A DNA stretch of 29,161 bases, taken from IMG/VR virus record IMGVR_UViG_3300021335_001490, positions 1 to 29,161 of that record; one strand, 5' to 3'. This document shows, piece by piece, positions 4,046-29,161 of this stretch (position 1 is the first letter of the stretch; each line of letters starts with the position of its first letter). The DNA comes from a virus. The notes under the pieces were generated by a model. The model was not told the origin of the DNA, made no database searches, and worked only from the letters and a program-made list of their open reading frames with translations. A program made the translations under genes and the position numbers.

Positions 4046-4625
4046 CTTTAATCTTGATATTGATCCACAAGCATTGCAGGAAGCAACAAATAAACTCGCT
4101 GAACAGTTTGTTGATGTACGTACAGCTAACCCAATGTTGTGTATGAATCATGAAGAACTTGTTAAAGATGTTTATGATAATTTTGAACAGATTAATCTAA
4201 CTACCCCTAGTAAAATTCTACCTCACACAACTTCTATTAAAGAAAGATTGAAGCGTAGAGAAGAACATTTATATAATGTTCCCACTGATGATTACACTGG
4301 AAGTATATTTGAAGAAATTGTTACACAGTGTAAAGCTCCTGCAAGTAGAATTAGAATTACAAAACTAGCGCCTAGAAAACAAATTCCTTTTCATGTTGAT
4401 TATGATACATCATATGCAGTTCGCTGTATTTGTCCAATATACACGAACGACAATGTAATCAATCAATTCAAAAGAAATGGTCAAATAGAAGAATACTACT
4501 TAGAAGCTGGTAATGCATACTTTTTGAATATTGGTTATCCTCATGCAGTTTTAAATAATAGTGATCAGCCGAGAATAGCTTTGATGTTTAGTTTGGATGG
4601 AACAGATGATTTGGGATATATTTAA
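4014..4625 (+). CDS. 2OG/Fe(II) oxygenase, aspartyl/asparaginyl hydroxylase-like
   Basis: The 203-residue product has the iron facial triad H127-x-D129 (PFHVDYD) and H177 (YPHAVLNN), followed at ten residues by R187, the usual 2-oxoglutarate-binding Arg. The spacing and the form His-x-Asp...His-(A/R)-V-x-N...Arg match the Asp/Arg beta-hydroxylase type of double-stranded beta-helix proteins. The preceding strand (RITKLAPRKQIPFH) also fits. It would hydroxylate an amino-acid side chain or a small molecule in the cytoplasm. It overlaps the previous gene by 32 bases and the next by 29. The substrate is unknown. Confidence 0.8.
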   Translation: MNKKNLPTVANFNLDIDPQALQEATNKLAEQFVDVRTANPMLCMNHEELVKDVYDNFEQINLTTPSKILPHTTSIKERLKRREEHLYNVPTDDYTGSIFEEIVTQCKAPASRIRITKLAPRKQIPFHVDYDTSYAVRCICPIYTNDNVINQFKRNGQIEEYYLEAGNAYFLNIGYPHAVLNNSDQPRIALMFSLDGTDDLGYI

Positions 4626-5376
4626 AACTGCACAGCATGTGCAAAGACAGGGCTACGCCTTATTTCACGATATTAATTTTACTGAAAAAGAATATATCGA
4701 TTATCTAAAAAGGTTTGGAGAACTCGAGGCTCCTGGATTGTTTATGAATCCGGATAAGTATCCTGAACTCTTTATTGTTACAGATAAAAAAGATGAAGCC
4801 GGAAATAAAATTGGAATGTTTGGAGGCGGTGAGCTAGGCTGGCATTCTAATGGTAATAGTAGACATCTTATTGATAAAATATTAATCAGCTTGTATTGTA
4901 TTGAAGGAGATGTTAATACTACTTTGAGTGTTTGCAATACTTCCGATCCGTTTTATGATTTATCAGAAGATGAGCAACAATATTGGAAATCAATAAAAAT
5001 TAGACTTAAATTTCAGAATGATACGATGTATCATTTAGACGATGATGATCCAGAACTTGAGTTCATGAGTAAGAACAAAGGAAGTATTAGGTCTCTCGTG
5101 GGCCAACATCCTCATACAAACAGATTTTATTTTTATTTTCCATATCATTTTATAGTAAAAGCATGGGAAGGTAAGAAGCCAATTGACCATAAAGAAATGA
5201 TTGAGAGACTAAAACCTATTATTTTCCAAAGTAAATACCAATTTCACCACGTATTTGCAAGGGGTGATTTACTTTTAATGGATCAGTTTACTACATTACA
5301 TAGGAGATCTCCGGTGATGGGAGACAGACTTTTGTGGAGAATTGCTGGAGACTACAATAGATGCACCAACACTTAA
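4597..5376 (+). CDS. TauD/TfdA-type 2OG oxygenase-like protein with altered HxN iron motif
   Basis: The 259-residue product matches the TauD/TfdA plan: an N-terminal FGELEAPG block, the first iron-motif region GWHSNGNSR at 81-89, and the C-terminal RGDLLLMDQFTTLHRRSP with the distal His 235 and the Arg-rich end GDRLLWRIAGDY (R248 the probable 2-oxoglutarate contact). The usual His-x-Asp is here H83-S-N85, so one carboxylate ligand is replaced by Asn. A single base change (GAT to AAT) would explain it. The enzyme may be inactive, altered (halogenase-like enzymes also lack this carboxylate), or use another ligand. ATG 4606, nine bases later, is an alternative start. Confidence 0.78.
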   Translation: MEQMIWDIFKTAQHVQRQGYALFHDINFTEKEYIDYLKRFGELEAPGLFMNPDKYPELFIVTDKKDEAGNKIGMFGGGELGWHSNGNSRHLIDKILISLYCIEGDVNTTLSVCNTSDPFYDLSEDEQQYWKSIKIRLKFQNDTMYHLDDDDPELEFMSKNKGSIRSLVGQHPHTNRFYFYFPYHFIVKAWEGKKPIDHKEMIERLKPIIFQSKYQFHHVFARGDLLLMDQFTTLHRRSPVMGDRLLWRIAGDYNRCTNT

Positions 5377-14308: not shown

Positions 14309-15532
14309 ATGAACTTTAAAGAATTTATTACTGAACAAAAAAATACACACATGACTCATATCGAGGATAAAGTTATCTATGGTGGAGTTAATGGTACTCG
14401 TGAAGCAATCCTAGCTTTACGCTCTTTAAGAGATACTTTAGGAGGTGTGCATGAAGGTTCTATCTCGGTTAAATGGGATGGTGCGCCGGCTGTTTTCGCT
14501 GGCATTGATCCAGGAGATGGTAGATTTTTTGTTGCTAAGAAAGGAATTTTTAATAAATCACCAGTCGTCTATAAGACTAACGCTGATATTGATGCTGATA
14601 CTAGCGGCGATCTTAATTCAAAATTAAAACAAGCTTTACGCTATTTACCGGACTTAGGTATTAAAGGTGTTATTCAAGGAGACTTTTTATATGGACCTGG
14701 AGATGTGTCGACACAAAAAATCAAAGGTAAAAGCTATGTCACCTTTCACCCTAATACAATTGTATATGCAATTCCTGCAGGCACGGAAATGGCCAAGACG
14801 ATCAAAGCAAGTAAAATAGGAATTGTATGGCATACTTCATATGTAGGAAAAACATTTGAAACAATGAAAGCCCAATACAATTTCAATGCATCATCATTAA
14901 AAAAATCAAAAAACGTATGGTCTCAAGACGCATTATTGAGAGACCTCACTAAATTTACTATGTCAGCCAAAGATACGGAGGAAGTTAATGGATATCTTAG
15001 TGAAGCTGGTAAAATCTTTAATTCAATTGCTGCAACGACTCTTAAACAGCTTGAAGCAAATTCTGACCTTAACAAAACAATTGAGACGTTTAATAACAGC
15101 TATGTTAGGCGTGGCGAAATCATTATGGACACAGGTGCTCATGTTGAAAAGCTCATTCGTTACATTCGTCAAAAGTTTCAAAAAGAAATAGACAAGAAAA
15201 AAACCGATGCAGGAAGAGCAACTCAACGAGGAAAAATGAATGAATTACTTAAGTTCTTTTCTAAAGAAAATAAAGTAAATCTAAAAAAGATTTTTGACTT
15301 GCAAAAATTATTAGTTTTAGCGAAATTAAAACTTATAAATATACTAGATAAGTTAAACAGTTCTAAAACTTTCTTAAAAACACGTCGAGGTTATCGACTA
15401 ACTGGTCAAGAAGGTTATGTAGCTGTTGATAAACTTGGTGGTGATGCGGTTAAAATTGTTGACAGAATGGAATTTTCATTTGCCAACTTTAGCCCGACTA
15501 TATTAAAAGGATGGGATAAACCGGGGAGATAA
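14309..15532 (+). CDS. KxDG-type nucleotidyltransferase, DNA/RNA-ligase-like (DUF6267-like)
   Basis: The 407-residue product has the nucleotidyltransferase motif I K55-W-D-G (SVKWDGAPAVF), a motif III-like stretch QGDFLYGP (123-130), and late motifs QEGYVAVD (E368, motif IV-like) and VKIVDR (K382, motif V-like). This is the plan of the covalent nucleotidyltransferases (ATP-dependent DNA and RNA ligases, capping enzymes), with a long helical insertion at about 200-350 before motif IV. I recall conserved proteins of this kind in T4-like marine phages under DUF6267; the exact label should be confirmed. The N-terminus MNFKEFITEQ resembles the T4 internal-protein targeting sequence MKTYQEFIAE. Ligase, nucleotidylylation or capping activity are all possible. 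Confidence 0.72.
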   Translation: MNFKEFITEQKNTHMTHIEDKVIYGGVNGTREAILALRSLRDTLGGVHEGSISVKWDGAPAVFAGIDPGDGRFFVAKKGIFNKSPVVYKTNADIDADTSGDLNSKLKQALRYLPDLGIKGVIQGDFLYGPGDVSTQKIKGKSYVTFHPNTIVYAIPAGTEMAKTIKASKIGIVWHTSYVGKTFETMKAQYNFNASSLKKSKNVWSQDALLRDLTKFTMSAKDTEEVNGYLSEAGKIFNSIAATTLKQLEANSDLNKTIETFNNSYVRRGEIIMDTGAHVEKLIRYIRQKFQKEIDKKKTDAGRATQRGKMNELLKFFSKENKVNLKKIFDLQKLLVLAKLKLINILDKLNSSKTFLKTRRGYRLTGQEGYVAVDKLGGDAVKIVDRMEFSFANFSPTILKGWDKPGR

Positions 15533-15534
15533 CA

Positions 15535-15978
15535 ATGGCGAAGCCATTAGACTTTAAGCAATTTATGACTGTCGATTACAAGCCTGGCAGTGACGATCAC
15601 ATTAAATATATGGCGCAAAAGCGTAAGCGTGCTGATGTTGAAGAAGACAGTGCAAACGAAGCGCTGACTCTACAGCAGCGCATGAAGCGCTCACGTATGA
15701 TGAAAAAAATGAAGTCACGTATTAAAATTGGTAGAATGCGGGCCAAACGTAAAATGGCTTCAAAGGAAAAATTAGATAAGCGTTCTATGAGAGCAGCTCG
15801 TAATGCTGTAGTAAAAAAGATTACCAAAGACATCCCTAAATCAGAATTATCATTTGCTCGTAAACAAGAAATTGAAAAACGCCTTGATAAACCCTCGTTT
15901 AAAGCAAGAATTAAAAGACTTGCTAAGAGAATGTATCCTAAAATCAGAAAAGCAGAAGTACAGAGGAAAAAAGGTTGA
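15535..15978 (+). CDS. Highly basic conserved marine-phage protein
   Basis: The 147-residue product is dominated by Lys and Arg (RMKRSRMMKKMKSRIKIGRM, KASFK..RIKRLAKRMYPKIRK region). Predicted helices suggest a nucleic-acid-binding or head-core protein. Similar basic proteins with an IxKxxKRxxPKxRKAE end are, as I recall, conserved in T4-like cyanophages. The start ATG 15535 follows GGGAGA. Its N-terminus (LDFKQFMTVD) is a weak match to the targeting motif of its neighbours. It overlaps the next gene by four bases. Confidence 0.75.
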   Translation: MAKPLDFKQFMTVDYKPGSDDHIKYMAQKRKRADVEEDSANEALTLQQRMKRSRMMKKMKSRIKIGRMRAKRKMASKEKLDKRSMRAARNAVVKKITKDIPKSELSFARKQEIEKRLDKPSFKARIKRLAKRMYPKIRKAEVQRKKG

Positions 15979-17114
15979 TCAATTCATTTCGTAATTACCT
16001 AGTTGAAGAAGAGAAGACTCTGTATTTTGTGTGGGGACGCATGAATCCACCTACAGCCGGTCATGAAAAGCTTCTTGACTTTTTAAAAGATAAAGCGGGT
16101 CGTAATCCGTTTCGCATTTATCTGACTCAATCAGAAGATAAAAATAAGAATCCTATACCATATATGCAAAAAGTAAAGTTTGCACGTAAAGGTTTTCCAC
16201 AGTATGCTCGTCAAATTATGATGGAAAAAAACCTAAAAACAATCTTTGATGCAATGACTTTTTTTTATAATGAAGGTTTTAGGCGCGTGGTTATTGTTGC
16301 AGGTGAAGATCGTATAAGAGAATATGATATCACCTTAAAAAAATATAACGGTATAAAATCCAAGCATGGGTTTTATAACTTTGAAAGGATTACAGTATTA
16401 AACGCAGGTAAAAGAGATCCTGAATCAAAAGGCGTTGCTGGCGTATCAGGAACTAAACTTCGTGGATTTGCAGAGAAAGGTGACTTCACAAAGTTTGCGC
16501 AATACATGCCAAAAAGATTATCAAATGCAGATGCTAAATCTGTCTTTAATTCTGTTCGTAAGGGAATGGGATTAAAAGAACAAAAAGAATTTCGAAACCA
16601 TGTACAATTAGATACAATTTCAGAGACTAGAGAAGCTTATGTATCTGGTTCTCTATGTGATGTAGGTGATAAAGTTATTATTAAAGAGACTGATGAAGTA
16701 GCAGAAGTAAAAGTATTAGGTACTAACTATGTTATTGTTGAATCAAATGGTGTACAGACTAGAAAATGGTTAGATGCAATTGAAGTAATTGAAGATTATT
16801 ATAAGGGGCTGTCAAAATCTACAGCAGATAAAAGAAAAGCACACTTTAATAAGAATGCTAAAAAGGCAGATGATAATAAATCTGCTTATAAGCCAGCACC
16901 AGGCGACGCTAATGCCAAAACTAAGCCAAGTAAACATACACTGAAGTTTAAACAAATGTATGGCGAAAATATAGGTATGGCAAAACAAAGGATTTCTAAT
17001 CAAAAGAAAATTGAAAAAAGAAGAGATGCTGCAGATGCAAAACGCCATGATCGTATGATGGATACTGCAAGATTAGCTGCAGCTCGTAGAAAAAATAGGA
17101 ATACTCAACCATGA
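15975..17114 (+). CDS. HxGH-type nucleotidyltransferase (adenylyl/cytidylyltransferase-like) with basic tail
   Basis: The 379-residue product has three parts. Residues 15-200 form an HxGH nucleotidyltransferase domain: LYFVWGRMNPPTAGH (T27-A-G-H30), RRVVIVAGEDR at 103-113 and the late SGTKLR (S158-R163), the ISxTxxR motif. This family makes dinucleotides such as NAD or CDP-alcohols. Residues 225-275 form a small SH3-like barrel (DVGDKVIIKE, NYVIVESNGV). The last 100 residues are Lys/Arg-rich and probably disordered. The start TTG 15975 overlaps the previous stop (TTGA). The N-terminus FRNYLVEEE fits the targeting-like motif. The substrate nucleotide is not determined. Confidence 0.82.
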   Translation: MINSFRNYLVEEEKTLYFVWGRMNPPTAGHEKLLDFLKDKAGRNPFRIYLTQSEDKNKNPIPYMQKVKFARKGFPQYARQIMMEKNLKTIFDAMTFFYNEGFRRVVIVAGEDRIREYDITLKKYNGIKSKHGFYNFERITVLNAGKRDPESKGVAGVSGTKLRGFAEKGDFTKFAQYMPKRLSNADAKSVFNSVRKGMGLKEQKEFRNHVQLDTISETREAYVSGSLCDVGDKVIIKETDEVAEVKVLGTNYVIVESNGVQTRKWLDAIEVIEDYYKGLSKSTADKRKAHFNKNAKKADDNKSAYKPAPGDANAKTKPSKHTLKFKQMYGENIGMAKQRISNQKKIEKRRDAADAKRHDRMMDTARLAAARRKNRNTQP

Positions 17115-20367: not shown

Positions 20368-20736
20368 ATGTTAGTTTTTAATGAATTGAATGAGGACAAC
20401 CTCTTTCTATATGCTGCGAAACATTATTATAATCCTAAGTTCTCTGATATTGAAGAGTTCTATGAGGATTTGAAAAGGTTCAAGTATATAAAGAGGTTGG
20501 TCAATCGTTATCTAGATCATGGTGAGTTGGCTGAAAGGTTGATTCTAAACCATTTGATTGTGGCATTCAATGCTTTTGGTGCTGAAGCGATGTTGAACAT
20601 CTTAGAATTAAAATTAGATGAAAAACATTGGCCAGTAGTAAAACCATTCTTAGTATTTTTGAAGTATATTACTAACGATCAGTATACGCAAGTTCCGATG
20701 GACCATATGGTAGTTAACGAATTAAGGAAGATCTGA
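20368..20736 (+). CDS. Conserved T4-like marine phage protein
   Basis: The 122-residue product is mostly helical: MLVFNELNEDNLFLYAAKHY, EEFYEDLKRFKYIKRLVNRY, ERLILNHLIVAFNAFGAEAM, EKHWPVVKPFLVFLKYI. I recall close counterparts in T4-like cyanophages beginning in the same way (MLxFNELNEDN), so the start is well placed. There is no Shine-Dalgarno sequence, only the late octamer directly upstream. It overlaps the next gene by one base (TGATG). The function is unknown; it may be a regulator or a small structural protein. Confidence 0.82.
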   Translation: MLVFNELNEDNLFLYAAKHYYNPKFSDIEEFYEDLKRFKYIKRLVNRYLDHGELAERLILNHLIVAFNAFGAEAMLNILELKLDEKHWPVVKPFLVFLKYITNDQYTQVPMDHMVVNELRKI

Positions 20737-21863
20737 TGCCAACAAGAAGTAGAAATCTAGCCGCAGCTCTCGGTGGTACTATTGCAAACAACGTATTTGG
20801 TACAGATGGTTCTCGTTCTGGTGCAGGTATTACTGTTTATGATTATGATTCGAACGGTGCATTACTTTTAACTGACAACTCTTCTTTTGCAGACGGTTCA
20901 TTACATTATCTTACCAATCAAAGAGAGCTATATGTTTGGGATGATAATGAATCAAAGTTTTATCAGTTAGATGAAATCTCTGATGATAAACTAGGAGGAT
21001 CCGTATTTTCTTACCAAGGATCAAATTACGGATATGTAGAAGGAGGTTCTTACACTAATATTATTGAGAGATATTCATTTACTGCTGATGGTGATGCTAC
21101 AGACACAGCAGATTTAGATGCTACTAACAGATATACATCTGGTATTTCTTCATCATCACATGGTTATACAGTGGCCGGTCAAAGTGGTGGTGATAAGATT
21201 AGAAAAAGAAGTTTTGCCACCGAATCAAATTCTTCTCAAGTTGCTTCATTGAATACAGCAGCTAACTATCAGCCGCAGATGGCCACAGAAGGTAATACTG
21301 GATTTGTTGCCGGCACAGACACTACTATGATCCAAAAATTCCCCTTTGCTTCTGATGTTAATTCTACTGATACTGGTGGTGACATGTATGGCGCTGTTAC
21401 CAGCGCGAGCTACTCAACATCAACAACGCATGGTTATATAGCCGGTGGTAATACACCTTTTGGATGGGGTGGACCAATAGTAAAATATCCATTTGCTATT
21501 TCTAGTGGCACAACATCTGATGTAGGTGATACTATCGGTAATACAAGACCATCAGGTGCAGGAACTCAATCTGACACTCATGGTTATATTCATGGTCAAT
21601 ATTTACAACCGGGTAATCAGGCCTCGAACCGAATAGAAAAATATTCATTTATTAGTGACGGTAATTCGACTGATGTGGGCGATCAAACTAGTACTACTAA
21701 TAACAGAACAGGCAGTTCTTCAACTACACACGGATACGCAGCAAATGGCAATCCTACTAGTGGTAAGATTATTGAAAAATATTCTTTTGCTAGTGACGGC
21801 AATTCGACTGATGTAGGTGATTGTATTAGTGGTAGATTCGGCGTCGGCGCCAATCAATATTAA
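20736..21863 (+). CDS. Kelch-like repeat tail/adhesin protein, copy A
   Basis: The 375-residue product starts with a short conserved tip (MPTRSRNLAAAL). A base module follows (YDYDSNGALLLTDN, DGSLHY, RELYVWDDN, KFYQLD; about 35-80). Then come six repeats of about 47 residues, each with an xxGYxxGG entry and a closing block like EKYSFASDGNSTDVGD. Six units suggest a six-bladed beta-propeller, kelch or galactose-oxidase-like, on the phage surface. It is rich in Ser, Thr, Gly and Asp. It begins in a TGATG junction. Binding to a host surface glycan or protein is likely but not shown. Copies B, C and D lie at 21916, 23065 and 28163. Confidence 0.85.
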   Translation: MPTRSRNLAAALGGTIANNVFGTDGSRSGAGITVYDYDSNGALLLTDNSSFADGSLHYLTNQRELYVWDDNESKFYQLDEISDDKLGGSVFSYQGSNYGYVEGGSYTNIIERYSFTADGDATDTADLDATNRYTSGISSSSHGYTVAGQSGGDKIRKRSFATESNSSQVASLNTAANYQPQMATEGNTGFVAGTDTTMIQKFPFASDVNSTDTGGDMYGAVTSASYSTSTTHGYIAGGNTPFGWGGPIVKYPFAISSGTTSDVGDTIGNTRPSGAGTQSDTHGYIHGQYLQPGNQASNRIEKYSFISDGNSTDVGDQTSTTNNRTGSSSTTHGYAANGNPTSGKIIEKYSFASDGNSTDVGDCISGRFGVGANQY

Positions 21864-21870
21864 TAACAAA

Positions 21871-21901
21871 GGACACATTATGGGATTAATTAAAAGGGCA
21901 G
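21871..21901 (+). repeat. Duplicated junction sequence, copy 1
   Basis: 31 bases starting GGACACATTATGGGATTAAT match 24204-24234 with one mismatch. The second copy is the ribosome binding site and first codons of the intact gene at 24213, so copy 1 marks an ancestral duplication boundary. Confidence 0.85.
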
Positions 21902-21915
21902 AGGATCGAGTATAA
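21880..21915 (+). pseudogene. 5' remnant of a second copy of the 24213 gene
   Basis: Reads MGLIKRAEDRV then TAA, against MGLIKRAADLTF in the intact gene at 24213. Only the first seven residues (MGLIKRA) are shared, with the same ribosome binding site (GGACACATT). It is either a leftover of the 24213 gene after a duplicated kelch gene was placed behind its first codons, or a short spared ORF that still drives coupling into ATG 21916, directly after its stop. Confidence 0.7.
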
Positions 21916-23055
21916 ATGTCAAGAGCAAGAGATATAGCGGATTTAATAACAGCTGCAATTGAAGCAAACACTATTCAATCCGACGGAACAATTACTGGCA
22001 CACCAACAAAAGTCAACACTCATGACTCTGATGGTGCGTTACTTGCTGCCGATAGTTCAGGTTATGCAGACGGTTCATTGCACTATATGACTACTCCTCG
22101 CAGACTTATGCTATGGGATGATAGTGACGGTGGTTTCTTTGAGATGACAATTGATTCTGATCAATTAACAGCACCATGGAGTATTCAAGGATCTCAGTTT
22201 GGTTATACGTCAGGAGGTTCGAGTCCAAGCACTGACGCAATTGATAAATATCCTTACAGTACTGATGGTAATGCTACTGATGTAGGAAATCTAACCACGT
22301 CTGGGCTCTATAGAATGACCGGTCACTCATCAATATCTCACGGCTATGTTGCTGGAGGAGGGCCTGGTTCTAAACGAAGCAAAATTCAAAGGTTTCCCTT
22401 TGCTGTTGATGAAAATTCTAGTGAAATGACAGCCACGTTAAATGAACCTCACTATTGGTCTGCAGCTTCTTCAACCGAAGACCATGGCTACATATATGGT
22501 AGTACACACACCTATCCTACTTCCGGAATAATAGAAAGATTTTCATTTGCTAGTGATGATAACTCTTCACAAGTTGGCTCGGCTTTAAATGGCAATGCAT
22601 ATGCAGCTGCCGGCACTTCAGATACTACGCATGGATATGTTACTGGCGGATTTCCCGATAAAACAATGATTCACCGGTATGATTTTTCTTCATCGGCCAC
22701 TGCTGCAGATGTTGGCAATCTTGCGCATGCGGCAACTTTTGCCACTTCCTCTAGTGATCCCACTAATGGGTATGGATACCATTTAGGAGGAAATAATCCA
22801 GGACCTTCGAATTATAATTATGTTCAAAGGTATGCTTTTGCGTCTAGTGGCAACGGTACTGATCATAGCGATCTTGCACAATCAGTAAAAGAAACAAAAT
22901 CCGGAACACAAAGTACCTCTAGTGGTTATATTGGTGGAGGGAGAGCAGGATCTACAAATATGATTCAAAAGTTTCCATTCGCTAACAACAGTAATGGTAC
23001 CGATGTCGGTGATTTAACTGTGGGCCGAAGAAATGCAGTAGGAAATCAAATCTAA
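21916..23055 (+). CDS. Kelch-like repeat tail/adhesin protein, copy B
   Basis: The 379-residue product starts MSRARDIADLITAAIEANTI and has the same base module (HDSDGALLAADS, DGSLHYMTTPRRLMLWDDS, GGFFEM). Six repeats follow, with entries such as HGYVAGG, HGYVTGG and SGYIGGG. The internal blocks (YPYSTDGNATDVGNL, KFPFANNSNGTDVGDL) match those of copies A and C. Its repeats have diverged from copy A, which suggests binding to different receptors. Its ATG follows the remnant ORF (TAA then ATG). Confidence 0.85.
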   Translation: MSRARDIADLITAAIEANTIQSDGTITGTPTKVNTHDSDGALLAADSSGYADGSLHYMTTPRRLMLWDDSDGGFFEMTIDSDQLTAPWSIQGSQFGYTSGGSSPSTDAIDKYPYSTDGNATDVGNLTTSGLYRMTGHSSISHGYVAGGGPGSKRSKIQRFPFAVDENSSEMTATLNEPHYWSAASSTEDHGYIYGSTHTYPTSGIIERFSFASDDNSSQVGSALNGNAYAAAGTSDTTHGYVTGGFPDKTMIHRYDFSSSATAADVGNLAHAATFATSSSDPTNGYGYHLGGNNPGPSNYNYVQRYAFASSGNGTDHSDLAQSVKETKSGTQSTSSGYIGGGRAGSTNMIQKFPFANNSNGTDVGDLTVGRRNAVGNQI

Positions 23056-23064
23056 GAGGCACAA

Positions 23065-24204
23065 ATGTCAAAAAATAGAAACATATCAGATAGAATCTCT
23101 GCAGCTTTAAGAGCCGGTAATCTTAATACTAGCGGTCAAATCATTGGTGGCGGTATCAATTCACATAACGATTCTGCTGAATCTGGTATATTGAGTAATG
23201 CCTCGGCCGGTGACGGTTCTATGCACTATGTTAATATTCCTAATAAGATGTATGTATATGATAGCAGTGATGCAGGTTATTATGAAATTAGTGTTGGCAA
23301 TTATTTAGGTTATGTTGCTCCTCATCAAGGTCAAGGTAGTACTTCAGGATTTATTTCTGGTAGTATAAATTCTAATCCTAACAATACAGTTCAATCGTTT
23401 GCATTTGCATCTGATGGTAACGCTACAGATCATGGCGACCTATCTTCTGATACTGGATATACCACTGGGGTATCATCATCTACAAATGGATACACTGTGG
23501 CTGGTTTTAAAACTTCTAGTTTTACAAGACACGATCACATTTTAAAATTTGCGTTTTCTAGTAATACTACTGGAACTGACGTAGGTGATACTTTAAGCGT
23601 AATGTATAGCCCTGCTGGTAACGAATCAACTACTCACGGTTATGTTGGTGGAGGATATAATCCCCCTAGTGTTTTAAATACAATACAAAAGTGGCCATTT
23701 TCTAGTGATGGTAATGCTACAGATGTAGGTGATTTATCTACTACAGTTGCGTACGCTGCAGGACAAACGTCAACCAGCGATGGCTATCTATCTGGTGGGT
23801 GGGGACCTGGTAATGAAACTAATGTAATTCAAAAGTATCCGTTTGCTTCTGATGCAAATGCTAGTAATGTTGGAACAATGACTGCAACTAGAAGAAGACT
23901 TACTGGAAGTAATTCAACTACACATGGTTACAACGCAGCTGGTGAACACGGATCATATAGAGATTTTATTGATAAGTTTCCGTTTGCCTCTGATGGATCT
24001 TCTACTCTTGTAGGAGATATTTACTATACAAGTACACAATATGCAGCAGGTTCATCGTCAACAGAAAATGGATACATTGCTGGCGGGACTGGTAATGCAG
24101 CAACTAATGATTTATCTAAATACTCATTTACCACTGACGGTGATGCCACAGATGTAGGAGATTTAACTATCACATCATTTGCCTCAGCAGGTCATCAAGT
24201 TTAG
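23065..24204 (+). CDS. Kelch-like repeat tail/adhesin protein, copy C
   Basis: The 379-residue product starts MSKNRNISDRISAALRAGNL and has a base module (GDGSMHYVNIPNKMYVYDSS, AGYYEI), slightly reduced compared with copies A and B. Six units follow, with GYVGGG, GYLSGG and GYIAGG entries and closing blocks such as WPFSSDGNATDVGDL. ATG 23065 follows AAGAGG. The stop is followed at once by the ribosome binding site and start of the 24213 gene. It is the most regular of the series. Confidence 0.85.
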   Translation: MSKNRNISDRISAALRAGNLNTSGQIIGGGINSHNDSAESGILSNASAGDGSMHYVNIPNKMYVYDSSDAGYYEISVGNYLGYVAPHQGQGSTSGFISGSINSNPNNTVQSFAFASDGNATDHGDLSSDTGYTTGVSSSTNGYTVAGFKTSSFTRHDHILKFAFSSNTTGTDVGDTLSVMYSPAGNESTTHGYVGGGYNPPSVLNTIQKWPFSSDGNATDVGDLSTTVAYAAGQTSTSDGYLSGGWGPGNETNVIQKYPFASDANASNVGTMTATRRRLTGSNSTTHGYNAAGEHGSYRDFIDKFPFASDGSSTLVGDIYYTSTQYAAGSSSTENGYIAGGTGNAATNDLSKYSFTTDGDATDVGDLTITSFASAGHQV

Positions 24205-24234
24205 GACACATTATGGGATTAATTAAAAGAGCAG
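24204..24234 (+). repeat. Duplicated junction sequence, copy 2 (intact context)
   Basis: Counterpart of 21871-21901, here in its functional place at the start of the 24213 gene. Thirty of 31 bases agree. Confidence 0.85.
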
Positions 24235-24800
24235 CAGACCTTACATTTACCTTTCGATTTATTCGTATGCTTGTGATGGATTGGAAGAATTGGGATGCCT
24301 ACAAATTAGGAATTATTGATGATGAAGGTAAACGTAATCGTAAGGTCGCTCTTGACAGTGATGAGAAAAAGTCTGCTTATACTCCTTTCATTCGCCTTGC
24401 TGCTAACGTTAAAAGGCTCGTTAGTAAAATACCAGGAGGTGGATCAAAACTTGGATCTTTTGCGAGCGCGCTATACCTCATCAAGGAGAAACACGGACTC
24501 GACGACACCAAGTTATTAAAGATTACAGAAAAATTAGGTTATGAGCCATTTGATTTTCTTGTTGAAGCAAATATGTGGTTTGTACTTGAAGATAAAAGAC
24601 TATCGCCTGGCATGTACAGAGTCAATGATTATAAAATGTTAAATTGTTCTTTTGATGAGATTGTGAAACCTAAAGATCAGATAAGAGTTTCAGAAACATG
24701 TTATCCAGTCGGTGATGTATTTGGTATTGACGTGTATGAAGTAACTCATATAAATACGAATAAGAACATTTACGTAGTAGTAAGCGAGCTAAACAAATGA
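24213..24800 (+). CDS. Conserved marine-phage protein of unknown function (MGLIKRAAD start)
   Basis: The 195-residue product begins MGLIKRAADLTFTFRFIRML. It contains RLAANVKRLVSKIPGGGSKL, FASALYLIKEKHGL and a beta-rich C-terminal half (GMYRVNDYKML, YPVGDVFGIDVYEVTHI, NIYVVVSE). The IPGGGSKL-x-SFASALYLIKE block is one I recall as conserved in T4-like marine phages. It overlaps the next gene by four bases (ATGA). A structural or regulatory role is possible. The gap before it and its remnant at 21880 show that it was next to the ancestral kelch gene. Confidence 0.8.
   Translation: MGLIKRAADLTFTFRFIRMLVMDWKNWDAYKLGIIDDEGKRNRKVALDSDEKKSAYTPFIRLAANVKRLVSKIPGGGSKLGSFASALYLIKEKHGLDDTKLLKITEKLGYEPFDFLVEANMWFVLEDKRLSPGMYRVNDYKMLNCSFDEIVKPKDQIRVSETCYPVGDVFGIDVYEVTHINTNKNIYVVVSELNK
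24749..24756 (+). promoter_or_regulatory. Possible late promoter inside the 24213 gene
   Basis: A perfect TATAAATA, 40 bases before ATG 24797 and inside the upstream reading frame. It could give extra late expression of the 24797 and 25047 genes. It may be chance, since it lies in coding sequence. Confidence 0.35.
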
Positions 24801-25060
24801 GTTTATGGGACAATATTAGAAAACGTAGAGCAGCTGGAAAGCGAAAGCTTAAGCCTGGAGATAAGAACTATCCAAAGACTCTAAATGTCGGTGAAATGAT
24901 GACAACGGCTGATGCTGGTATACCACAAGATACCAAAAACATGGGCCCTAAACTAAAAACTTATAATGTTACAGATCGTCGTAGAAGAAAAGATAAGGTT
25001 CCAGTTCTACTTAAAAGATTTAGAAAATACCACGAGGATTTAAGTAATGAGCAGAAGTAA
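24797..25060 (+). CDS. Small basic conserved phage protein
   Basis: The 87-residue product (MSLWDNIRKRRAAGKRKLKP, GDKNYPKTLN, ending in KRFRKYHEDLSNEQK) is strongly basic. The start MSLWDNIRKRR with KPGDKNYP resembles small proteins of marine T4-like phages. It starts in an ATGA overlap and overlaps the giant gene by 14 bases. The function is unknown; it may be a fibre-associated or assembly protein given its place. Confidence 0.75.
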   Translation: MSLWDNIRKRRAAGKRKLKPGDKNYPKTLNVGEMMTTADAGIPQDTKNMGPKLKTYNVTDRRRRKDKVPVLLKRFRKYHEDLSNEQK

Positions 25061-28000
25061 AGATATTGCCGAGATTCTCGGTTTAACAGAAGCCGAAAAT
25101 ACGACTAATGCTTCACTAGGAGATGGTTCTGGTGGAGGCAGCGTAACTACTTATGCTACTCCAGAAAACTTACCTACATCTGGAAACTCGTCAGGCGATC
25201 AAGCATTTGTTACAAGTAATAACAGATTATATATTTGGAATGGTAGTGGTTGGTACAACATTGCTCTCATTAATACTAACCCATCGTTTACTAGTTCACC
25301 AAATGGCACATATGAATTAAATACGGATGGAACTTCTACAACAATTACATTAGTAGCCACTGATCCTGAAGGGGTACCTATTACGTATACCACAGAAACA
25401 GACTCTAACTTTGACGGGTTGGCTACCGTATCTAATGATTCTTCTGTATTTACTATTACTCCGCTTTCTTCGCCTACTACAGGTTCTGGTAACTTAACAT
25501 TTAAGGCATCTGATGGAGTTAACATTGGATCTGCAGTTTCTCAATTTACACTGGCCTTAGCTATTGACAACTCGGCTTATACTATTGTACTAGCAAAAGC
25601 AACCGGCAACGCTGGAACAAATACTACATTTACTGATGGCTCAACAAACAGTCATACTATTACAACGGTAGGAAATGCATACTCATCATCGTTTACACCA
25701 CACCATCCTGGTGGTTACAGTGCTTATTTTGACGGCAGCGGTGATTATTTAACTATTCCTAGTTCAACAGATTTTAACTTTGGTACTAATGCATTTACTG
25801 TTGAGTGGTGGCAATATTGGGACGGAGATAATGGAAACGGATATGCAACACTATATAGTAACAACTATACTAGTGCCTCAGGAGTAGTAATCCAAACAGA
25901 TAATAATGTGAATAAGTATATAACGTATTTAAATGGTACAGGTACAACAATAACCGAGTCTACTGCCGCATCTGCAAATCAGTGGTATCACTATGCACTT
26001 GTCAGAAACGGTAACACCTTTACGTTCTACAGAAACGGCATCGCTGCCGGAACAGCTACACTTAGTGTTGGTATAGGATCAAGCGCAATACAAAGTATTG
26101 GTGCAAGAACTAATGGTATACTTCCAATAAGTGCTTCGTATATTAGAGATTTTCGTATAGTTAAAGGAACAGCCGTTTATACAACAGACTTTACTCCACC
26201 GGCTGAACCACTTACTGCTATTTCTGGCACTTCTTTACTCGTATGCAGTCTTCCATACATAACTGATGCATCAGCTAGTAATCATACTATTACAGCAAAT
26301 GGAAATACATCTACTGAAAGATTTGGTCCATATGACTATCTTTCATATAGTGCAGCCGATCATGGTTCTTCTGTAAGTCTCGATGGATCTGGTGATAAAT
26401 TAACAATTCCTGCTGATTCTGAATTAGCTGCAGATAACGGTGACTTTACATTCGAAACGTGGATATATCCTACCGCGTTTACTTCGTATGACATGATCGC
26501 GTCAATGGGCACACAAGGTTCCGCTTTTAATTATACCCTATTTGTTCATAATACTAGTCAACACTTGATGTTTGAAGCTGGGGACGGTAATTGGTCATCA
26601 ACTCAGTATACTAGTAGTGTTGATGATGGTATAGTTAAATTAAATCAGTGGCAGCATATTGCAGTTGTATACGATAGCGGCAATTTAACAATTTATAGAA
26701 ATGGTAAGATTGCTATCTATCAAGCTTCGGCCGCAACTGCAGATGGTCACTCCGGGACTTTCGCTTTAGGTGATTGGATGAATACCAGCAGTTATCCTGT
26801 TACAGGTTATATTGCTGATGCAAGGATTGTCCAATCAGCTGTATATTCAAATAATACAGCATTTACGCCACCTACTGCACCGTTATCTGCAATTACAGAT
26901 ACCGGAATGTTGCTTACAGCATCTCCTAATGTTTATAATGCTGCTGGGTTATCTAATGATTTAAAATTGTATGGTAATACCCAATCATCTACTGCTCAAA
27001 CTAAAAACGCTTCTTCAAGTGTGTACTTTGATGGTACTGGTGACTATCTTACTGCTGGAACATCTTCTGGCTTTACATATGGTACTGGTGACTTTACAAT
27101 CGAAGGATGGGTTTACGTAGATAATAATCCTGGAAGTTACGCATACTTTTTAGGTCAAGGTGGTACTATTAGTAGCACCGCTTCTATTGGAATGTATATA
27201 CAAGGCGGTGTCTTTAAAGTATATAATAATGGTGTAGTTATTACAGGCACAACATCATATAGCTTAGATACTTGGTATCACGTTGCACTAGTACGTGGCA
27301 GTGGCCAATTGACTTTATTCCTAAATGGATCGGTAGAAGGAACTGCTGCTAATACAAATAGTATTTCTTCTGGTTCAACAATGGGACTATCACTTGGCAG
27401 ATGGGCTGAGGTTGGAGACAATGGATACTTCAATGGATATCTAGAAGACTTTAGAGTTACAAAAGGATTTGCTAGATATCCGTTTATTCCAACACAAGAG
27501 ACATTGACAGCTGTTTCTAATACAGAATTATTAGCTGCTCATGCCTCAACGCTTGTTGATGGATCGGGTAACAGTGCAACTTTAACTGCTGCTGGAAATG
27601 CTGCAGTATCAACATTTGGTCCATATTCTGGTATGAATTCGATATATTTTGATGGTGCCGGTGACTATGTTACGTCTAGTAGATCGTCTTCTGATATGGG
27701 TATTGGCACCGGAGATTTTACAATCGAGTGTTGGTTCTATGATGATGGATCTGCTAGTGATAGAGGTATTTGGGAATCTAGAGCGACAGGCTCTTCTACT
27801 GGTATGACTTTGACAATGGTTGATTCTAATACTATTAGAGTTTGGACAACATCACAGCAACTAGTAACGGCCGATGTTACACTTACTAGTACATGGAATC
27901 ATTTAGCAGTTGTTAGAAATAGCGGTACTCTTGAATTATTCTTAAATGGACAATCGCAAGGTACGGTGTCTAATTCTACTACTTTTGCAGATACTGCGGA

Positions 28001-28139
28001 CTTTGTAATTGGCGGCGGTAGATACGCTGGCGGCGGGATTGACAGAACTATTAAAGGGTATATTTCTAATTTCAGAATTGTAAAAAGTGCACTTTATAGT
28101 AATTCGTTTACACCACCAACTAGTGAGTTAAAAGGATAA
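25047..28139 (+). CDS. Giant multidomain LamG/concanavalin-like adhesin or tail fibre protein
   Basis: The 1030-residue product starts with the shared tip MSRSKDIAEILGLTEAEN and a base module ending RLYIWNGSGWYNI. A cadherin/Ig-like domain follows (about 76-170; PSFTSSPNGTYELNTDGTST and ATDPEGVPITY). Then come four LamG-type jelly-roll domains starting near residues 225, 442, 659 and 866, marked by YFDGSGDYLTI, SLDGSGDKLTI, YFDGTGDYLTA and YFDGAGDYVTS. Each also has a WYHYALVRN-type strand and a FRIVKGTAVYT-type end. The domains recur about every 205-217 residues. LamG domains bind sugars or proteins, so a receptor-binding role is likely. It starts inside the previous gene. Confidence 0.88.
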   Translation: MSRSKDIAEILGLTEAENTTNASLGDGSGGGSVTTYATPENLPTSGNSSGDQAFVTSNNRLYIWNGSGWYNIALINTNPSFTSSPNGTYELNTDGTSTTITLVATDPEGVPITYTTETDSNFDGLATVSNDSSVFTITPLSSPTTGSGNLTFKASDGVNIGSAVSQFTLALAIDNSAYTIVLAKATGNAGTNTTFTDGSTNSHTITTVGNAYSSSFTPHHPGGYSAYFDGSGDYLTIPSSTDFNFGTNAFTVEWWQYWDGDNGNGYATLYSNNYTSASGVVIQTDNNVNKYITYLNGTGTTITESTAASANQWYHYALVRNGNTFTFYRNGIAAGTATLSVGIGSSAIQSIGARTNGILPISASYIRDFRIVKGTAVYTTDFTPPAEPLTAISGTSLLVCSLPYITDASASNHTITANGNTSTERFGPYDYLSYSAADHGSSVSLDGSGDKLTIPADSELAADNGDFTFETWIYPTAFTSYDMIASMGTQGSAFNYTLFVHNTSQHLMFEAGDGNWSSTQYTSSVDDGIVKLNQWQHIAVVYDSGNLTIYRNGKIAIYQASAATADGHSGTFALGDWMNTSSYPVTGYIADARIVQSAVYSNNTAFTPPTAPLSAITDTGMLLTASPNVYNAAGLSNDLKLYGNTQSSTAQTKNASSSVYFDGTGDYLTAGTSSGFTYGTGDFTIEGWVYVDNNPGSYAYFLGQGGTISSTASIGMYIQGGVFKVYNNGVVITGTTSYSLDTWYHVALVRGSGQLTLFLNGSVEGTAANTNSISSGSTMGLSLGRWAEVGDNGYFNGYLEDFRVTKGFARYPFIPTQETLTAVSNTELLAAHASTLVDGSGNSATLTAAGNAAVSTFGPYSGMNSIYFDGAGDYVTSSRSSSDMGIGTGDFTIECWFYDDGSASDRGIWESRATGSSTGMTLTMVDSNTIRVWTTSQQLVTADVTLTSTWNHLAVVRNSGTLELFLNGQSQGTVSNSTTFADTADFVIGGGRYAGGGIDRTIKGYISNFRIVKSALYSNSFTPPTSELKG
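25072..25135 (+). repeat. Shared N-terminal anchor coding repeat, copy 1
   Basis: 64 bases, of which 60 are identical to 28188-28251 (four differences, all silent). They encode the residues ILGLTEAENTTNASLGDGSG that follow the start in both proteins, though everything downstream differs. Confidence 0.9.
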
Positions 28140-28162
28140 AGAGTAATCAAAGGATATAACAG

Positions 28163-29161
28163 ATGACAAGAAATAGAGACATTGCTCAGATTCTCGGTTT
28201 AACTGAAGCCGAAAATACTACTAATGCTTCACTAGGAGACGGATCTGGTGGCGGTGGTTCTGGTGTTACTGCTTACAGCTATGATTCTTCAGGTGGATTG
28301 CTTTTAGCAAGCACTACAGATCACACTGACGGATCTTTACATTGGTTAGGAGAGGTTAACGAACTTTATGTTTGGGATAGTGCAGCTACTAAATATTACT
28401 TAGTTGAGAATACTAAAACCTTAGGTTTAGGAGAAGTTGCTCCTACTCAAGCTCAAGGATCTACATATGGTTTTGCTACAGGTGGCTATGCTCCAGGCGG
28501 AAGCTCAAACAATGCTATTGGTAGATTTGCATTTGCAAATGAATCAAGTACTACTTCTATCGGTAATTTAACAGTAGCAAGACAACTAGGAGGTAGTAAC
28601 TCCTCTTCTACTCATGGTTATTATATTGGAGGTTATCTTAGACCAGGATTTTCATCATCGAATGTAATTGACAAATTTGCAATGGCCTCAACTGGAAATG
28701 CTACAGACGTAGGTGATGATACAGGCACATATTATTATCGTAAAGGTGGTCCATCAGACACTCATGGCTATCATGCAGGAGGCAACTCACCCGCGCAATC
28801 AGAGATTGTAAGATATTCATTTTCAACTGATGAAAACGCTACAGACGTCGGTGATCTTGCTCAAAATACATCGGGTCGAGGAGCATTTACTAGTACAACC
28901 CATACATATATCTGTGGTCATGGTATGGATCGTCAAGTAGAAAAATTTGCGCATTCAACTGGTGTTACTGGAAGTTCTGTAGGTGATATTGGCAATACTC
29001 AATACGGAGTGGCAACAAATGACACGACTGCTGGTTATTTTTCATATATGAGTTCTAGTAGTAATATCCAAAAACATTTATTCGCAAGTGATGCAACAGC
29101 TTCAACTGCAGGAACTATTAACTCATCCGGTGGTGGTGTGAATGAAATTGCTGTTAGTAGT
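28163..29161 (+). CDS. Kelch-like repeat tail/adhesin protein, copy D (cut by the window end)
   Basis: From ATG 28163 (after AAGGAT) the frame stays open to the last base, 333 residues. It starts MTRNRDIAQILGLTEAEN like the LamG protein, then continues with the kelch base module (YSYDSSGGLLLAST, DGSLHW, ELYVWDSA, KYYLV). At least five repeat units are visible (YGFATGG, HGYYIGG, HGYHAGG, HTYICGH, AGYFSYM). Full-length copies have 375-379 residues, so about one unit should lie beyond the window. Confidence 0.88.
   Translation, partial: MTRNRDIAQILGLTEAENTTNASLGDGSGGGGSGVTAYSYDSSGGLLLASTTDHTDGSLHWLGEVNELYVWDSAATKYYLVENTKTLGLGEVAPTQAQGSTYGFATGGYAPGGSSNNAIGRFAFANESSTTSIGNLTVARQLGGSNSSSTHGYYIGGYLRPGFSSSNVIDKFAMASTGNATDVGDDTGTYYYRKGGPSDTHGYHAGGNSPAQSEIVRYSFSTDENATDVGDLAQNTSGRGAFTSTTHTYICGHGMDRQVEKFAHSTGVTGSSVGDIGNTQYGVATNDTTAGYFSYMSSSSNIQKHLFASDATASTAGTINSSGGGVNEIAVSS
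28188..28251 (+). repeat. Shared N-terminal anchor coding repeat, copy 2
   Basis: Counterpart of 25072-25135 in the next protein, with 60 of 64 bases identical. It joins a kelch body to the tip otherwise found on the LamG protein. Confidence 0.9.

Follow-up and report, generated by a model that had tools for sequence, protein, structure and literature searches.

Layout of the five-gene array

The analysed window is a metagenome contig of 29,161 nt from a marine T4-like virus (IMGVR_UViG_3300021335_001490, positions 1 to 29,161). The contigs designated by L numbers below (L006, L008, L009, L010, etc.) are its relatives from IMG/VR and are likewise metagenome contigs. Five neighbouring genes of the window, A, B, C, LamG and D, encode probable host-binding proteins, four of the kelch type and one of the LamG type, which are referred to here as adhesins. 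Their positions and those of the associated features are as follows.

20736..21863, + strand: adhesin A (kelch type), a 375-aa protein with its tip at about residues 1-31 (MPTRSRNLAAAL), hub at 32-95 and predicted propeller at 96-375
21864..21915, + strand: transfer scar; copied start of the 195-aa gene (ATGGGATTAATTAAAAG..), joined to the A/B spacer at GATC
21916..23055, + strand: adhesin B (kelch type), a 379-aa protein with the tip MSRARDIADLI
23065..24204, + strand: adhesin C (kelch type), a 379-aa protein with the tip MSKNRNISDRI
24213..24800, + strand: 195-aa gene (phrog_18642), conserved, a landmark of the locus
24797..25060, + strand: 88-codon gene (MSLWDNIRKRR..), overlapping the LamG start by 14 bases
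25047..28139, + strand: LamG adhesin of 1030 aa, with its tip at residues 1-32, hub at about 33-76, Ig-like part at about 77-172, and four Laminin_G_3 domains
25072..25135, + strand: 64-base tip copy within LamG
28163..29161, + strand: adhesin D (kelch type), 333 aa or more, as the window ends within the gene, with its tip at residues 1-34 and hub at about 35-100, followed by body X
28188..28251, + strand: 64-base tip copy within D

The array lies outside the structural operon; it is flanked by DUF7207 and the 195-aa gene, and on the other side by a holin-like gene and the ribonucleotide reductase gene. The 3' end of D and the next gene are legible in L090, which is 99.3% identical to the window across 151 bases, and a diverged version of the 88-codon gene is found instead in L009 and L010. 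Judged by two flanking genes, the nearest isolates are phage C48C1, pelagiphage HTVC008M, Methylophilales phages and cyanophages. Searches of 50,697 phage records with the tip and hub of D returned only weak hits in lytic enzymes, and those with the LamG hub and Ig-like stretch returned no match, so no isolate with a near copy was found. In a scan of genome collections, adhesin B matched a Bacteroidota MAG over 19 residues only, which was taken as chance. Elsewhere in the window, the genes at 14309-15532 and 15975-17114 each match a part of the same phage family (phrog_455), the latter additionally matching cytidyltransferase families, and 4597-5376 weakly matches a phage family of taurine-dioxygenase-like proteins (phrog_24590, E 1e-5).

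Tip, hub and body modules

The first-pass annotation had stated that LamG and D share 60 of 64 bases at their N-terminal tips, with silent differences only, on quite different bodies. The count is exact (25072-25135 vs 28188-28251): four of codons 10-29 differ, none changing the amino acid. Silence holds for these 64 bases only; codons 1-9 do differ in amino acids (MSRSKDIAE in LamG, MTRNRDIAQ in D). A weaker similarity of 85% spans 104 bases (25035-25138 vs 28151-28254), and the remainder of the two genes is unrelated. For comparison, the best off-diagonal 64-base match between the LamG gene and D was 37, and the best match in 20 codon-shuffled copies of D was 40, which sets the chance ceiling at about 40.

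A metagenome search for this tip, an idea of the same annotation, found it not on one constant body but on at least five kinds. By degenerate pattern search, the tip (ILGxTEAENTxN) occurs in 13 copies on 10 IMG/VR contigs, where it is attached to multi-LamG bodies (L008, L009 and the window), to several differing kelch bodies (L006, identical to L008; L009; two in L010; the window), to a shorter protein with a single LamG domain (L092/L093), to proteins of 437-441 aa without a Pfam match (L094, L097), and to a Gly_rich_2 protein (L095/L096). In those of its genes with readable flanks, the 195-aa gene precedes and/or the ribonucleotide reductase gene follows.

All five proteins fit one layout of tip and hub, in agreement with the common start and base module noted in the first pass, with the LamG hub in a diverged form (GDQAFVTSNNRLYIWNGSGWYNIAL). 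A tip and hub profile built exclusively from kelch-type proteins hits the LamG protein of L008, a close relative of the window's, at positions 1-82 with E 5e-13; the LamG hub itself was not reached at E<1 by an HMM of kelch hubs only. Profile-profile comparison links the LamG hub to the kelch hub (84% probability, pairwise E 8e-6). The LamG-type hub (LPTSG..GDQAFV..RLYIWNGSGWYNIALIN) was confirmed in at least 356 IMG/VR stretches, and the 79 hub loci retained carry many unrelated tips. Within the array, A, B and C each have a tip of their own, which is kept between strains. A PDB sequence search with the tip and hub profile gave chance-level hits only. Two further arrangements were seen among the relatives. 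Tip-and-hub-only proteins of 73-79 aa, with no body, are encoded directly before full-length adhesin genes (L010 909-1130, L015 3565-3804), and three genes of L078 (2327-3433, 5941-7059, 7069-8175) carry an Mtd_N (PF18454) N-terminus before kelch-like repeats, so that bodies of this kind also occur behind a different N-terminal module; Mtd_N is absent from the window's five proteins by Pfam search.

The AlphaFold2 model of protein A (20 aligned sequences, pLDDT 77.6) has a short helix near the N-terminus, at residues 4-17, in a tip whose pLDDT is below 50, a small beta-alpha-beta-beta-beta hub at 33-77, and a six-bladed kelch propeller at 96-375 with Z of about 35 to Keap1 and to designed SAKe propellers. 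Low-confidence stretches at 14-30 and 80-90 appear as linkers that coincide with the two junctions described below, which supports modular exchange. Adhesins B-D were assigned to the kelch type via sequence alignment to A, and none of A-D matched the Pfam kelch models at E up to 0.1; the four thus count as kelch proteins on their predicted fold and not on a Pfam model. Four stretches of the LamG protein match Laminin_G_3 (PF13385; 223 bits vs a cut-off of 27.6). The model of its N-terminal part is poor (pLDDT 54), so that fold matches to it carry little weight; in this low-confidence model the hub strands run in the same order as those of A. Collectively, these results are better pictured as three exchangeable modules, a variable tip, a conserved hub and a variable body, with the tip moving together with its 5' flank.

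Body replacement, scars and movement between loci

L008 and L009 derive from separate metagenomes, and in the surroundings of the D gene their identity is 99.7-99.9%. Their D genes are identical up to base +89, within the Gly linker; past this base, hub and body are unrelated (about 50%), and identity resumes at the stop codon. The same pattern, with the N-terminal part kept and the C-terminal part replaced, is found when A, B and D of the window are set against L008 and L009. Compared with L008, tip and hub of A are 93-98% identical in DNA and the body about 50%, the values for B are 90-100% and about 60%, and C is conserved over its whole length. There is a second junction where the hub meets the body, and on the 3' side the breaks fall at or just beyond the stop codon. 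L010 contains one hybrid gene: it has the 5' flank of the LamG slot, its codons 1-9 are identical to LamG at 27/27 bases (19-20/27 to D), and downstream of them it continues with a D-type linker and hub and ends in the D-slot 3' flank, which places the joint inside the tip. Both loss of LamG in L010, where the gene is absent from the LamG slot, and its gain in the others fit this arrangement. The hybrid makes the tip DNA, proposed in the first pass as the recombination site, one place of crossing over. The accompanying idea of swappable bodies on a fixed anchor stands in part: bodies do change behind a conserved tip (L008 vs L009), but there is no single fixed tip, as each of A, B and C has a separate one, a given body can be joined to tips that are unrelated, and the widespread part is the hub.

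Adhesin A is composite, with tip and hub as in the A gene of L008 and a body mostly 92-100% identical to that of the C-slot gene of L010 (7873-8985), whose tip is unrelated. Between A and B lies a scar (21864-21915), a vestigial start of the 195-aa gene that includes a 32-base near-perfect repeat of 24203-24234. Since the transferred DNA extends into the beginning of the 195-aa gene, which follows the C slot, the scar points to a transfer from a C slot to the A slot. A second scar was found in L071, where an adhesin gene follows the portal gene and is itself followed by a degenerate start of the gene downstream of the D slot; this adhesin has hub and body in common with D of L009 (81-98% per 60 bases) and a different tip.

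The same bodies recur at other loci on other tips. D of the window shares hub and body, but not the tip, with an adhesin of L072 that lies before gp67, gp21, gp22 and gp23; the hub and body of L010 9585-10799 recur with another tip in L068, directly upstream of neck genes; and the LamG hub and Ig-like part recur with other tips in L116/L117, again directly upstream of neck genes. An empty site was also observed, in that the adhesin gene of L072 (3541-4691) is cleanly missing from L071 (10692-10694), between a 110-aa gene and gp67. That tips are strictly bound to a locus is ruled out by MSINRDL, which occurs both beside gp67/gp21 (L072) and before the neck genes (L068); the 5' flanks of the two loci are homologous, so a tip follows its own 5' flank.

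Because the window and its relatives are metagenome contigs and the tip is repeated within a genome, some or all of these joins might be assembly errors arising from repeated tip and Gly-linker DNA. We regard this as very unlikely: L006 and L008 share their arrangement in two metagenomes, L072, L073, L074 and L084 agree across four samples, the D body differs from that of L072 by about 10%, so that no read could be shared, and scars with diverged sequence require real past events.

Bodies X (that of D) and Y occupy opposite places in two metagenomes. The D slot of 3300046387 contains Y (L009), with X located next to gp21 (L072), and that of 3300021335 contains X (L090), with Y located behind the portal gene (L071). 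The two metagenomes diverge to a similar degree, with identities of about 92% at one locus and 90-95% at the other, as expected if each X/Y pair comes from one genome. One might hypothesize a reciprocal exchange between the loci, read from contigs that do not span both. Whether one pool of bodies moves among at least three loci of one genome (the ribonucleotide-reductase array, portal-gp21 and neck), with the local tip as a fixed address, is a tentative extension that we hold to be rather doubtful; if true, the tip would determine where on the virion a body of any kind is placed, and the virion place of each protein could become predictable from about 30 residues.

Proposed role and relation to known systems

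We consider it probable that the five proteins are modular adhesins on the virion, whose bodies are swapped and relocated by recombination while tip and 5' flank stay in place. Each adhesin would start with a short, helical tip, continue with a small hub rich in beta structure, and end in a large body, either a six-bladed kelch propeller or LamG domains, with flexible linkers between these modules. The tip helix may dock the protein on the virion, with the hub as connector, and the propeller or LamG body would bind the host surface. Recombination would replace the body through breaks in the tip or linker DNA, where hub and body meet, and at the stop codon or just past it, and would also move bodies among the array genes as well as to portal and neck loci of related phages.

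A role on the virion is supported by the same bodies occurring in structural operons and on the Mtd_N N-termini of L078, and by the kelch protein CBB_552, a virion component of jumbo phage CBB (PMC5259590). The position of the array outside the host recognition cluster of pelagimyophages counts against it. Alternatively, the proteins could be non-virion products made in infection that act at the infected cell surface, e.g., against superinfection, as the location outside the structural operon and the neighbourhood of ribonucleotide reductase and a holin-like gene would allow; the presence of the same bodies inside structural operons of relatives makes this improbable. Swapping could also be real while the proteins serve as capsid or tail decorations (Hoc-like or whisker-like) with loose surface binding instead of specific receptor-binding fibres. 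LamG, Ig-like and kelch domains suit such a role, bodies adjoin head and portal genes in other phages, and phage CBB has both kelch proteins and tail whiskers; however, LamG-type relatives adjoin neck genes, where the host recognition cluster sits, and quick body replacement in near-identical genomes is described as typical of host recognition proteins (PMC3909814). We therefore judge decoration unlikely, if less so than a role at the infected cell surface. The array provides a base-level picture of a wild marine phage lineage altering its probable host-binding proteins, with junctions and scars still visible, and the hub module offers a means of detecting adhesins of this kind that annotation misses.

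The gp37/gp38 system resembles the array in belonging to T4-like phages and in swapping at short conserved motifs, which are Gly-rich in that system. It differs in that here several paralogues lie at a different locus and bodies move between loci, and no homology to gp37/gp38 was seen in the array proteins.

A conserved N-terminal anchor with an exchanged binding domain, and recombination at conserved motifs, are established for phage receptor-binding proteins (PMC10408124, PMC6872550, PMC8262889). As described in these sources for Klebsiella and E. coli phages, the N-terminal part is conserved, the C-terminal part is exchanged, and conserved DNA motifs around the exchanged part are proposed as recombination sites, likewise as here. 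Their anchors reach about 150 residues and their bodies are mostly beta-helical, whereas in the array the tip measures about 30 residues, the hub is a module of its own that can be exchanged, the bodies are kelch or LamG, and the genes are arranged in tandem.

Marine phages with near-identical genomes but different recognition genes are also known (PMC3909814). The pelagimyophage host recognition cluster (PMC7029224) and metaviromic islands (PMC3909814) are, by these accounts, similar to the array in concerning marine T4-like phages, in recognition genes that differ between near-identical genomes, and in concanavalin-type domains; that cluster lies between VrlC and gp14, and the array between the DUF7207/195-aa gene pair and ribonucleotide reductase. 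Jumbo phage kelch proteins such as CBB_552 share the six-bladed kelch fold, which is predicted here, at a low sequence identity of about 12-20% in fold matches, and no tip and hub module is reported for them (PMC5259590). In the excerpts of the literature consulted, we found no description of the three-module layout, of a tandem kelch/LamG array at this locus, or of scarred transfer between slots and loci. The principle of a conserved anchor with swapped adhesins is thus well known, the arrangement and the movement between loci are new, and as an instance of a strategy already known from phages the array is unusually well marked.
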